64,000 nucleotides of DNA from Clostridium sp. BJN0001 (GTDB lineage: Bacteria; Bacillota; Clostridia; Clostridiales; Clostridiaceae): assembly GCF_022869825.1 (NCBI RefSeq), contig NZ_CP094971.1:1117501-1181500 (forward strand), in the 5' to 3' direction. Below the pieces are notes generated by a model, which worked only from the letters and a program-made list of their open reading frames with translations, had not been told where the DNA came from and ran no database searches. The position numbers and the translations under genes are program-made. How positions within the stretch are numbered: the first letter of the stretch is position 1; each line of letters begins with the position of its first letter. Positions 22,865 through 40,345 of the stretch are shown in pieces.

Positions 22865-23602
22865 ATGTCAGGACACTCAAAATGGCATAATATACAGGCC
22901 AAAAAAGGAAAAACAGATGCCAAAAGAGGTAAGATATTTACCAAAATAGGTAAAGAATTAATGGTAGCTGTAAAAGAAGGCGGCTCTAATTTAGATGCAA
23001 ACAGCAGACTTAGAGATGTTGTTGCAAAAGCTAAAGCAGCTAATATGCCTAACGACAATATAGAAAGATCAATTAAGAAAGCAGCAGGAGAATTAGGTAC
23101 AGTAGATTATGAAAATATAGTTTATGAGGGATACGGACCGAGCGGAGTTGCAGTAATAGTTGAAACTCTTACTGATAATAAAAATAGATCAGCAGCAAAT
23201 GTAAGATGTGCATTTACAAAAGGTGGAGGAAATCTTGGAACTACAGGATGTGTAAGTTTCATGTTCCAGGAAAAAGGAGAAATCATAATTTCAAAAGAAG
23301 ATAAAGATGAAGATGAAATGATGATGATGGCACTAGATAGTGGAGCAGAGGATTTTCAGTCAGAAGATGAAGTATTTGTAGTTACAACTACTCCACAAGA
23401 TTTTGGACAGGTACGTGAGTCACTTGAAGAAAAAGGAATAGAGTTTTTAGAAGCAGAAGTTAAGATGATACCAAATACATATACATCTATAGATGAAGAA
23501 GCAGCTAAAAAATTCCAAAAGATGCTTGATATGCTTGAAGATGATGATGACGTACAAAATGTTTATCATAACGCTGAATTCCCAGAAGGATTTGAAGAAT
23601 AA
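22865..23602 (+). CDS. yebC: YebC/PmpR family protein, 3' end reconstituted by element integration
   Basis: 245 residues, full family length: MSGHSKWHNIQAKKGKTDAK at the start, TRxGGNLG-like FTKGGGNLGTTGCVSFMF in the middle, and an acidic end. YebC/TACO1-family proteins bind DNA or, as shown more recently, assist translation of proline-rich stretches. The last 68 bases, coding for residues from about 224 to the stop, are repeated at 40278-40345. Integration of the adjacent element therefore keeps the protein intact. The normal terminator has been moved to 40381. Confidence 0.95.
   Translation: MSGHSKWHNIQAKKGKTDAKRGKIFTKIGKELMVAVKEGGSNLDANSRLRDVVAKAKAANMPNDNIERSIKKAAGELGTVDYENIVYEGYGPSGVAVIVETLTDNKNRSAANVRCAFTKGGGNLGTTGCVSFMFQEKGEIIISKEDKDEDEMMMMALDSGAEDFQSEDEVFVVTTTPQDFGQVRESLEEKGIEFLEAEVKMIPNTYTSIDEEAAKKFQKMLDMLEDDDDVQNVYHNAEFPEGFEE
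23535..23602 (+). repeat. attL: left copy of the 68-bp yebC-end direct repeat
   Basis: Runs from TTGAAGATGATG through the yebC TAA. It differs from the right copy at two bases, AAC GCT against AAT GCA, both synonymous (Asn-Ala). The crossover must lie in either the 5' identical block (~37 bp) or the 3' identical block (~27 bp). Confidence 0.92.
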
Positions 23603-23667
23603 AGATATTAACCTCTTGGTATTACTAGCTTTGAACGAATTAGAATATTAACTTTAAAAACTAAATA

Positions 23668-23682
23668 ATTAAGGTGTACATC
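23668..23682 (+). repeat. Putative integrase arm-type site (left)
   Basis: ATTAAGGTGTACATC is present 66 bases inside attL. Near copies (ATTAAGGTATACGC and ATTAAGGTGTATATC) lie inside attR. Shared short direct repeats near both ends are expected of tyrosine recombinase arm sites. Confidence 0.45.
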
Positions 23683-23714
23683 AATTATGGTTTATGTTTA
23701 ATGATGTATATATA

Positions 23715-23751
23715 AAAAAACACTTTCTGTTATTAACAGGAGGTGTTTTTT
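23715..23751 (+). terminator. Terminator hairpin enclosing the integrase Shine-Dalgarno
   Basis: AACACTTTCTGTT pairs fully with AACAGGAGGTGTT (with G-U pairs) around a 3-base loop, extended by A/T pairs and followed by TTTTTT. The AGGAGG at 23738-23743 lies in the 3' strand of the stem, and the integrase TTG starts directly after the T run. It would end yebC transcription and hide the integrase ribosome binding site in read-through RNA. Confidence 0.75.
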
Positions 23752-24670
23752 GTTGTTATTAAAAGGTTTATTGAAAGAATTTATATTAGAACTAGAAATA
23801 AGGAACTATTCCAAAAGAACGTTAAAAGGTTATAGAAATAATAATTTATTAATGTTTACCTATTTAGAGAAAGAATTTAATATTACCGATATTGAAGATG
23901 TTAAACCAACATATATAAAATCTTACATTAAATTTTTACAAAGAATTAAAAGAAAACCAACATATATAAATGGAATTATTAAATGTTTTAGAGCTTTCTT
24001 TAAATATGCGACAGATGAAGAAATAATTGAAAACAATCCAATGTTAAAGATTAATTGGTTAAAAGAGGAAAAGGTAATAATTAATACTTTCAATGACGAA
24101 GAAGTTGATAGAATGATGAAAGTATATACAGGTAGCGATTATATGAATATTAGAAATAAATGTATTTTGGCAATATTATTTGATACTGGTGTCAGAAATT
24201 TAGAATTATGTTCATTAAAAACTAATGATGTAAAAGACACTTATTTAACAGTAAAACAAGGAAAGTGTAGAAAAGATAGAAGAGTGGCTCTAAGTCCTAT
24301 AAGCAGAAGAATAATTCTTAGATATGTAAGATGCAGAAATAGTTTTTTTGCAAATAGGATTATAGATGAGACTACACCGTTTTTCTTAAGTTACAGATTT
24401 AAGGCTTTAACAATTGAAGTGGTTGAAAGAGTCATGAAAATAGCTGGTAAGAAAGCTAATATTAGAAAAGATATACGTTGTAGTCCTCATACTGCAAGAC
24501 ATTATTTTGCACAAGCTCAACTTAGAAATGGATTAGATATATATTCGTTAAGTAGGTTATTAGGTCATGAGAATATTTCAATAACTAAGCGTTATTTACA
24601 AGGACTTCAAGATATTGAAATAGTAGAAATGGCAGTAAAAACAAGTCCATTAATGAACTTAAGAAAGTAG
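23750..24670 (+). CDS. int: Tyrosine recombinase/integrase
   Basis: 306 residues from TTG (a second TTG follows at once). Residues ~8-95 are the SAM-like N-terminal domain. The catalytic domain shows the first Arg in DTGVRNLELCSLKTNDV, the HxxR box in SPHTARHYFAQA, the second His in LSRLLGHENISITKRYLQGL and the nucleophile Tyr in KRYL. It sits next to attL, as integrases normally do, and acts on the yebC 3' end. Translation may be limited by the hairpin over its ribosome binding site. No excisionase is obvious; small HTH proteins nearby are candidates. Confidence 0.92.
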   Translation: MLLLKGLLKEFILELEIRNYSKRTLKGYRNNNLLMFTYLEKEFNITDIEDVKPTYIKSYIKFLQRIKRKPTYINGIIKCFRAFFKYATDEEIIENNPMLKINWLKEEKVIINTFNDEEVDRMMKVYTGSDYMNIRNKCILAILFDTGVRNLELCSLKTNDVKDTYLTVKQGKCRKDRRVALSPISRRIILRYVRCRNSFFANRIIDETTPFFLSYRFKALTIEVVERVMKIAGKKANIRKDIRCSPHTARHYFAQAQLRNGLDIYSLSRLLGHENISITKRYLQGLQDIEIVEMAVKTSPLMNLRK

Positions 24671-24679
24671 GTGAACACA

Positions 24680-38812: not shown

Positions 38813-39910
38813 ATGAAATATAACACAATAGATTATTCTTATAATAAAGCTATAAAAGATTATGGAGTTGTTGCCATCCTTGGAGATACTGAAACAAAAG
38901 TATTAATTAGAGAGATTACAGATCCAAAATCTGATTATGGAATTGATTATAAGAAAATTATAAGTTCAAGAAAAATAGAACAGGGCAATTATGTGTCTAT
39001 CAATAAAGTTAAATTCTTAATTTGTGCAAAAGAGGAACAAATGACACAAAGTATATATAACGTAGCAATTTTCAGAAAGACACTACCAATATTACTAGGA
39101 AGTGAATATAAACCAGTAGACGCTATAGTCAATATGGATAAAAATGTACTTTTAAATGGACAATATATAGAAGAAGTACACGACCAGTATCAATTCATAA
39201 TACCAAAAAATGGTAATGATATAGGTGTAAATACTGAAATAGTTTACAATATGGGAATATATAAAACTATTAGCGTAGATGAAACAAAGGACAACTTATA
39301 TTATGTTATTGCAAAATATAAAGATATATATAACCCTCATAAGTACACTATTACATTAAATGAAACAAGTAAGACACTTAAAGAAACTGAAATATTTAAT
39401 ATTATTGCAACTTGTACTGATAATGACGTAGTTGTTTCTGAACCAGTAGTTACATATGTTTCATCAGATGATAGCGTAGCAACTGTAGATAATAATGGTG
39501 TCGTAACTTGTGTAGGGGCTGGAAGTTGCACTATAACTTGTACATATAATAAAGTAGATGCAACATTAAACTTAGTTGTTGAGGAGAAACCAGCAGAGCC
39601 AATAGTGTCATATACACATACTTGGAGTCAACCTATAGATTCATTAAGAAACTACTGTTCAAGTACATTAACAGTAACTAAAATAGTAAATGAAACTGAA
39701 ACACCATGTAAAATTACATACAGTTTAGACACTTTAGGACAAAGTTATTTAAGTGGTGGCAAGATAAAAATTACTGTAAAGGCTAATAATTCTATACAAA
39801 TTAAAAATGTAAGTGCCACAGAGGGCAAAACTATTGTATTAACTATTAAAGATAGTGAAGATGATAAAATTATTTTAGAACAAAATATAAAATTGATAAG
39901 TGGATTTTAG
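38813..39910 (+). CDS. Neck/head-closure-like protein with Ig-like (BIG2) domain
   Basis: 365 residues. Residues ~1-110 (KAIKDYGVVAILGDTETKVL; RKIEQGNYVSINKVKFLICA; YNVAIFRKTLPILLG) look like a head-closure or tail-adaptor domain. Residues ~180-265 are a bacterial Ig-like domain: VTYVSSDDSVATVDNNGVVT then GAGSCTITCTYN. A further beta-rich domain ends the protein. Ig-like domains on phage particles often decorate the surface and bind carbohydrates. It may be the adaptor that lets the head accept a helper phage tail. Confidence 0.6.
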   Translation: MKYNTIDYSYNKAIKDYGVVAILGDTETKVLIREITDPKSDYGIDYKKIISSRKIEQGNYVSINKVKFLICAKEEQMTQSIYNVAIFRKTLPILLGSEYKPVDAIVNMDKNVLLNGQYIEEVHDQYQFIIPKNGNDIGVNTEIVYNMGIYKTISVDETKDNLYYVIAKYKDIYNPHKYTITLNETSKTLKETEIFNIIATCTDNDVVVSEPVVTYVSSDDSVATVDNNGVVTCVGAGSCTITCTYNKVDATLNLVVEEKPAEPIVSYTHTWSQPIDSLRNYCSSTLTVTKIVNETETPCKITYSLDTLGQSYLSGGKIKITVKANNSIQIKNVSATEGKTIVLTIKDSEDDKIILEQNIKLISGF

Positions 39911-39923
39911 GAAGGGGTTCAAA

Positions 39924-40127
39924 ATGGAACAAGAAATATTAAAAATGGCTCTAAGCTATGGAATTTTTGGTATACTTTTTGTATACCTTTTCTTTTATAT
40001 GTTAAAAGATAGTAAAGCTAGAGAAACAAAATATCAAGATATGATAGATAAAATAACTGATAAATTTAATATCGTAGAAGATATTAAAACAGATGTAGAT
40101 TTTATTAAAGAAAAAATTTCAAAATAG
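39924..40127 (+). CDS. BhlA/UviB-type holin-like peptide
   Basis: The ATG at 39924 follows GGAAGGGGTTCAAA. The 67 residues begin MEQEILKMALSYGIFGILFV with one membrane helix, then KDSKARETKYQDMIDKITDK and a charged helical tail, the layout of BhlA/UviB holin-like peptides. Such proteins permeabilise the membrane or anchor other proteins. No endolysin gene accompanies it. Confidence 0.75.
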   Translation: MEQEILKMALSYGIFGILFVYLFFYMLKDSKARETKYQDMIDKITDKFNIVEDIKTDVDFIKEKISK

Positions 40128-40146
40128 GTATTGCAATTCTTTATGA

Positions 40147-40222
40147 AAAGGTGTATCTTTATATTAAGGTATACGCTACTTTAATATAAGGGTATTTATT
40201 AAACTGTATTAAGGTGTATATC
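40147..40222 (+). repeat. Cluster of putative integrase arm-type sites (right)
   Basis: AAAGGTGTATC (about 40148), ATTAAGGTATACGC (40163) and ATTAAGGTGTATATC (40208) are close copies of the left-end ATTAAGGTGTACATC. All are in the same orientation and lie within 130 bases of attR. No gene is present here. Confidence 0.45.
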
Positions 40223-40277
40223 GTAATATAAGTATAACAGAAAATGTTATAAACTTAGTTATATAGCCATTTTAGAG

Positions 40278-40345
40278 TTGAAGATGATGATGACGTACAA
40301 AATGTTTATCATAATGCAGAATTCCCAGAAGGATTTGAAGAATAA
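40278..40345 (+). repeat. attR: right copy of the 68-bp yebC-end direct repeat
   Basis: It encodes the same C-terminal peptide as yebC (EDDDDVQNVYHNAEFPEGFE and E-stop) but with AAT GCA in place of AAC GCT. It is not attached to a yebC body, so it is a displaced 3' end. Confidence 0.92.

Follow-up and report, generated by a model that had tools for sequence, protein, structure and literature searches.

A putative capsid-forming phage satellite family with a conserved order of head genes in clostridia

The element at the 3′ end of yebC

The DNA stretch analysed here, hereafter the window, comprises 64,000 nucleotides of Clostridium sp. BJN0001 (contig NZ_CP094971.1, positions 1,117,501 to 1,181,500), whose genome consists of a single contig of 2.69 Mb. 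At 23535–40352 the window harbours an integrated element of 16,743 bp that encodes the components of a phage head and in which no tail genes were recognised. The limits of the element are a direct repeat of 75 nt, 93% identical (23535–23609 and 40278–40352). The left copy overlaps the 3′ end of yebC (22865–23602; PF01709/PF20772), including its last codons; as seen in the sequence, the element carries a copy of the yebC end and the gene therefore stays whole. An initial annotation had ascribed to this unit an integrase, a scaffold, a capsid protein, small and large terminase subunits (TerS and TerL), a portal, a connector, a neck-like protein and a holin. Profile comparisons corroborated the integrase, scaffold, capsid, TerL, portal and holin as well as the immunoglobulin-like (Ig) domain of the neck-like protein; TerS was assigned by position and conservation and the connector by position only (Table 1). 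The portal gene is interrupted by an IS3-like insertion, and its two pieces were profiled separately. Because this gene is split, the window copy is probably defective or inactive, as judged from its sequence. The head genes are divided into separate blocks by a replication slot, which is filled by differing proteins in relatives, and by an accessory slot.

Table 1. Features of the window element, with the position of a further yebC element (G106)
Feature	Position	Strand	Evidence or remark
attL, copy of yebC 3′ end	23535..23609	+	direct repeat, 93% to 40278-40352
Tyrosine integrase	23750..24670	+	PF00589 1.3e-26; phrog_1 5.5e-38
62-aa open reading frame (ORF) after integrase	24671..24859	+	ORF 65% identical in G106 element
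1.9-kb gene-poor stretch, no assigned genes	24860..26760		diverged direct repeats
Small helix-turn-helix (HTH) regulator	26765..26971	+	HTH_3/HTH_26 slightly below cut-offs; upstream of scaffold in several relatives
Capsid scaffolding protein	27394..27852	+	phrog_172 8.4e-9; DUF4355/Gp46 scaffold below cut-off
Major capsid protein, N4gp56-like	27946..28785	+	phrog_544 2.4e-22
HTH_3 regulator, conserved 3′ of capsid gene	28863..29123	+	PF01381 1e-6
Probable DHH-type phosphoesterase (RecJ/NrnA-like fold), putative nuclease	29417..30316	+	
Likely replication initiator, variable slot	30881..31792	+	HTH_36 below cut-off; no PHROG match
TerS-like protein	32388..32774	+	position and conservation; no PHROG match at 0.01
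Large terminase TerL, T4 gp17-like	32859..34421	+	phrog_2 3e-38; PDB 3ezk gp17 2.3e-36
Portal, 5′ piece	34415..35203	+	SPP1_portal 1.3e-33
Two transposase ORFs (93, 297 aa) of IS3-like insertion	35269..36440	+	family label from reading translations
Portal, 3′ piece	36391..36990	+	SPP1_portal 1.6e-22
Accessory slot	37000..38313	+	HNH, SHOCT or other cargo in relatives
114-aa family-specific protein, putative head-tail adaptor	38457..38801	+	position only
Head-closure-like protein with Big_2/Ig domains (neck-like)	38813..39910	+	Big_2 1.9e-7
BhlA-family holin	39900..40127	+	PF10960 8.4e-22
attR	40278..40352	+	direct repeat
G106 element	L186/L187, 1398-38262		reverse-complement coordinates

A family with a conserved gene order

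Relatives of the element were found on five Clostridium contigs, on 22 IMG/VR contigs and in one genome of another family. Ten of 98 genomes gave capsid matches, namely the window's own, five at 41–71% identity and four weak ones at 23–27%; carriers at 41% capsid identity or above thus number 6/98, the window's own included, and the presence of the element is patchy. A TerL scan of the genome contigs returned five loci, all in Clostridium. The best 80 of 406 relatives in the corresponding scan of viral contigs fell on the two sides of a clear gap, with 22 at 43–76% and 58 at 23–27% identity. Searched against a protein database, the capsid yielded 118 relatives at E ≤ 1e-20 that are 42–95% identical, one of them named as N4-gp56 family by its source.

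Five of the six loci examined for repeats proved to be att-bounded units. In addition to the window element these are units of 16,334 bp in C. weizhouense (G005), 17,001 bp in C. cibarium (G055), 16,991 bp in a Clostridium metagenome-assembled genome (G023) and 20,449 bp in G064, with exact terminal repeats of 88, 54, 90 and 137 nt, respectively. Three of the five units, including that of the window, are integrated at yebC, one at another gene (G005) and one at tRNA-Leu (G064). No terminal repeat was found at the C. carboxidivorans locus, a 21.5-kb piece.

The set used to compare gene order comprised 27 family contigs, two of which (L022 and L032) are an identical fragment of C. puniceum (genome G050). 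The nine core genes lie on one strand in all 27, and 26 share the order scaffold, capsid, HTH, DHH, TerS, TerL, portal, 114-aa protein and neck, as far as each contig extends. The initial annotation had placed scaffold and capsid upstream and TerS, TerL and portal downstream; the capsid gene indeed precedes the terminase in every contig that holds both (20/20, 19 of them distinct). As this order is kept across contigs, the apparently permuted arrangement is a fixed trait. The suggestion of a family with its own gene order in clostridia was likewise borne out, the family being so far seen mainly in clostridia.

The single exception to the shared order is L038, in which the neck gene lies at the left end beside the integrase. 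The match that follows the integrase corresponds to the neck protein with its N-terminal domain included, which indicates that the gene has moved in the L038 subclade; the whole contigs of L040 and L044, members of the same subclade, also show a neck match beside the integrase. In the excised circle the relocated gene would lie near the 114-aa gene again. Neck matches beside the integrase, at the opposite end, were recorded at L038:1088-2257, L109:1303-2451 and L110:16610-17815. The integrase gene changes place too: it lies between portal and 114-aa gene in L036, and in G064 and L039 it occupies the right end and is encoded on the opposite strand.

In the gene-poor stretch of the window element, unassigned minus-strand ORFs reach up to 97 aa and no Rfam match was obtained. 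Diverged direct repeats (D1, D3, D5 and D7) occur in this stretch (24860-26760) and at 37459-37495, and a related motif is present in some relatives. These repeats are perhaps origin, operator or integrase arm sites.

Distance from known phages

Comparison with 50,697 phage records disclosed remote similarities. Among the matches listed, identity was 26–27% for the capsid (best 20 of 141), at most 29% for TerL (best 20 of 2358) and 21.5–23.5% for the portal of a relative (best 12 of 111), and none was a close relative of the head genes. Phages with phrog_544-type capsids, which include those of Lacticaseibacillus, Streptococcus, Streptomyces, Listeria and others, have a capsid distantly related to that of the element; the records listed for them are 31–43 kb long, as against approximately 16–20 kb for the element units.

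Searches for tail, baseplate and lysis genes

Comparison of 20 window proteins with PHROGs and Pfam disclosed no tail, baseplate or endolysin family, except for 'tail' PHROGs on the Ig part of the neck-like protein. A PHROG scan was also carried out on 45 ORFs of the five att-bounded units, which were 44 of the 66 unassigned ORFs of at least 50 aa and one HTH-matched ORF, all of at least 60 aa; the remainder of the 66 consisted of 18 ORFs shorter than 60 aa, two transposase ORFs, one 60-aa ORF and one open-ended ORF, and ORFs below 50 aa or overlapping longer ones fell outside the scan. Twenty-five families were matched, none of them tail, baseplate or lysis, and the five units contained no tube, needle, spike or endolysin family. 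The profile check proposed by the initial annotation for tail or baseplate genes among unassigned ORFs thus came out negative, and its statement that no tail genes were seen agrees with the results for the window element and the four further att-bounded units. The statement does not extend to a sublineage, described below, that has a tape measure and a hub. Most close relatives likewise do not belong to full-length phages, that sublineage being the exception.

A further scan took in 40 ORFs chosen from 15 family contigs, and among the best 25 of 42 matched families 'major tail protein' was hit by two ORFs and 'tail fiber protein' by one (6.2e-8). These matches may come from two Ig-bearing ORFs included in the scan, one a neck protein and the other a cargo protein. 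No head maturation protease family emerged from PHROG and Pfam comparison of the 20 window proteins or from PHROG comparison of the 45 ORFs. HNH genes were not detected at curated strength in the window, where there is one weak PHROG match (E 0.049); in relatives they lie between portal and 114-aa gene (G005) or after the integrase (G023).

The neck-like protein and the 114-aa protein

The neck-like protein is encoded by the last structural gene and finds its best viral fold matches in head-closure proteins; the match in BFVD is to 'Head closure knob' (E 1.6e-20, TM 0.44). Its second domain was aligned with Hc1 (hhalign 46%, with weak profile support). In relatives the whole protein measures 278 to 805 aa and the Ig part varies. 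PHROG 'tail' families match the window protein at residues 160-305, which are the Ig part; given this location and the head-closure folds, the possibility that the protein is a tail tube was rejected.

The adjacent 114-aa protein was detected in four of 68 genomes of the genus, precisely the four with a capsid gene at 55% or above (the capsid search covered 59 of these 68). It had no match at E ≤ 0.01 in the 50,697 phage records, and profile comparison showed no similarity to adaptors.

An unrelated head module with the same neck type

Genome G106 carries at yebC an integrase of the same type (84%), in a 36.8-kb unit bounded by an exact 39-bp repeat. The head genes of this unit are unrelated to the family: its capsid is 42% identical to that of Staphylococcus phage SpaA1 and its TerL 37.5% to that of a Clostridioides phage. 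The module displays the canonical order, the portal and MuF-like labels coming from reading only, and ends with an 89-aa gene and a 722-aa neck/Ig protein, followed by an endolysin 31% identical to that of a prophage resident in the BJN0001 genome. Over its first 88 residues this neck protein shares 43% identity with that of G023. Only three ORFs exceed 600 aa, the neck (722 aa) and two of 1093 and 729 aa that by eye are polymerase-like and a helicase, and no ORF was recognised by eye as a tape measure. That one neck type occurs with two unrelated head modules and no recognised tail is the best clue to a docking role of the neck.

Similar integrases also lie next to yebC in genomes without a capsid match (G042, 71%; G038, 69%; G014, 53%). 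The 3′ end of yebC is a much-used site of insertion.

A sublineage with a tape measure

Two relatives, G098 (36.7 kb) and G115 (57 kb), have the family core order with extra genes inserted between TerL and portal. The insert encodes a hub-like protein (phrog_1887), a tape measure of 1889 aa (phrog_4211, 1.2e-85) and a 107-aa protein; it is found on L105/L106 in G098 and on L155-L157 in G115, whose gene content, including a ParM-like ORF, was read by eye. The TerL of G098 is 60% identical to that of the window and the core order is identical, but in G098 and G115 no DHH gene lies between capsid and TerS, where the window element has one. G098 contains 37 ORFs of at least 60 aa, most core and tail genes among them having been scanned separately; PHROG comparison of 22 further ones, with five small ORFs and a 481-aa end ORF outside the scan, gave the hub as the only tail-family match and no tube, sheath, baseplate or lysin. 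G098 also has a large protein with a DxDGD motif. ORFs with this motif and a match to phrog_8308, possibly RNA-polymerase-like, were noted at L023:1411-4551 (1046 aa) and L031:2021-5488 (1155 aa), and an 879-aa ORF without it in L044.

A C. puniceum contig follows G098 gene for gene up to and including the four small ORFs after TerL and ends before the hub; in view of this match, tail genes are probable in C. puniceum too. In a TerL tree of 25 family and 3 outgroup rows, G098 and C. puniceum are nested among tailless members (supports of 95/91 for the 12-row set and 100/98 for the 13-row set). On this topology one gain of the tail cassette would be simpler than approximately four losses, absence of the cassette being judged by TerL–portal adjacency. 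The cassette and portal stretch is 91–95% identical between G098 and G115 and the stretch from scaffold to TerL 81%, which suggests that the cassette has been exchanged on its own.

Comparison with known satellites

Phage-inducible chromosomal islands (PICIs) in general possess AlpA-type and divergent Stl-type regulators. No AlpA-type regulator was found in the element, which differs from PICIs in this respect: both regulators of the window element match HTH_3-type families and share the strand of the core genes. Capsid-forming PICIs (cf-PICIs) are described as encoding capsid, protease, portal, connectors, TerS, TerL and HNH (PMC10690885), as averaging approximately 14 kb and residing primarily in seven host groups, none of them clostridial (PMC10803314), and as relying on the helper for tails only (PMC10690885, PMC10803314). 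Likeness was judged by descriptions, drawn in part from these papers, and not by sequence. By this measure the element resembles cf-PICIs in having its own major capsid, portal, TerL and, by position, TerS. It departs from them in that no protease was detected, a scaffold protein being present where cf-PICIs have the protease, in the lack of HNH in the window packaging module, in the distribution of head genes over three blocks, in the N4gp56-like capsid and in the T4-type TerL. The best reading of the comparison is that the family would work like cf-PICIs while missing several of their features.

MulchRoom, a Streptomyces satellite, has an integrase and places a small capsid on a tail resembling that of its helper, according to PMC10690885. 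As described there, MulchRoom and MiniFlayer carry their structural genes in one module at one chromosome end, unlike the element, and have virulent helpers and direct terminal repeats; MiniFlayer has a tail fiber gene in addition. Among the literature matches listed, no title or abstract opening describes the present family, subscription papers lying mostly outside the search, and the accessible part of PMC11389934 names Clostridium solely in a reference to another element.

Selection, intactness and the resident prophage

In 12 of 12 gene comparisons from three pairs of relatives, the nonsynonymous rate (dN) is below the synonymous rate (dS), with ratios of approximately 0.08–0.39 (for TerL, as an example, dN 0.06 and dS 0.64), indicating that the genes of the element are kept by selection. 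The portal ORF is at least 397 aa long in 21 of the 24 contigs with a portal match; of the other three, L027 has a split gene, and contig ends truncate the gene in L042 and L046.

The genome that contains the window also hosts a complete-looking prophage with a contractile tail (G000:C1:1802085-1834693), in which nine of ten profiled proteins correspond to TerL, capsid, neck, head closure, sheath, tail protein, tape measure, baseplate wedge and endolysin. A source of tails therefore exists in the genome, and this prophage could be a helper. Its residence in itself proves nothing about such a role, since a review (PMC11389934) recounts that 17 resident prophages all failed to mobilise one E. 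coli cf-PICI.

Interpretation and alternative explanations

The element is best interpreted, with a probability of roughly 0.7, as an integrated phage satellite, of the capsid-forming kind, from a clostridial lineage; its dependence on a helper is inferred, and it probably uses helper tails. According to this scheme, the tyrosine integrase would insert the element into the yebC 3′ end, and upon induction the element would excise and replicate, probably by means of its own initiator and DHH nuclease. A head built on its own scaffold would then be filled through its own TerS, T4-type TerL and SPP1-type portal, the genes for which are present; the likeness of TerL to T4 gp17 suggests headful packaging. 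Two proteins, the 114-aa adaptor-like one and the head-closure/Ig protein, would then seal the packed head, the latter docking a helper tail, and the helper endolysin together with the element holin would complete lysis. An extension of the scheme envisages the neck/Ig protein as an exchangeable docking module serving at least two unrelated heads in clostridial elements, head-only elements having arisen by combining any head with a shared docking part, and with G098 and G115 bringing a tape measure and a hub that would fix the length and tip of a tail based on the helper's tube; this proposal is tentative and rather doubtful.

A number of observations weigh against the satellite interpretation. 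The BFVD match of the neck protein is not rigid over the whole chain (rmsd 17.9 at the TM of 0.44), in the PDB it matches Ig and S-layer proteins both in sequence and in fold, and with its variable Ig domains it could be an adhesin. The adaptor and TerS labels rest on position. The G106 element has its own endolysin, and a tape measure and a hub occur in one nested sublineage. Core genes look split in L027 (portal), L038 (capsid), L043 (TerL) and L045 (TerL and capsid), and the similarity between the element and the resident prophage is confined to the integrases, a short HTH match and one 33-nt DNA match.

The main rival is a minimal autonomous phage in which the neck/Ig protein itself serves as an extremely short tail, or as an adhesin, and DNA delivery dispenses with a conventional tail. 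A last structural gene whose product spans 278 to 805 aa with a variable Ig part agrees with such a phage, as do the holin and the endolysin of the G106 element with its same neck type. However, the five att-bounded units yielded no family of tube, needle, spike or endolysin proteins, and the best viral folds of the neck are those of head-closure proteins, which makes this explanation unlikely. Ordinary prophage remnants that lost their tails by decay would account for the split portal of the window and for the core genes that look split in 4/27 contigs, which may reflect decay or sequencing error; yet the core order is kept in 26/27 contigs, the portal is intact in 21/24, dN lies below dS in all 12 comparisons, att repeats are preserved and the phage matches listed include no close relative of the head genes. 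Decay is accordingly very improbable, and was rejected on the conserved order and on dN below dS. Head genes without tail genes could also belong to a gene-transfer or killing device of the host that produces head-only particles and does not spread by itself, but the integrase, the att repeats, the several integration sites and the patchy presence (6/98 genomes) fit a mobile element, and little credence can be given to a host device.

Implications

Capsid-forming satellites have come to light only recently, and the hosts in which cf-PICIs are 'primarily found', as enumerated in PMC10803314, do not include clostridia. If the satellite interpretation is true, the capsid-forming strategy would exist with another capsid type, another terminase type and heads encoded in three blocks. 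The lineage would then represent a natural experiment in which most members are tailless, one nested sublineage has a partial tail, and the neck recurs with an unrelated head module. Two questions would become testable: how a tail of foreign origin is recognised by a satellite head, and whether virion parts are gained by satellites and not only lost.

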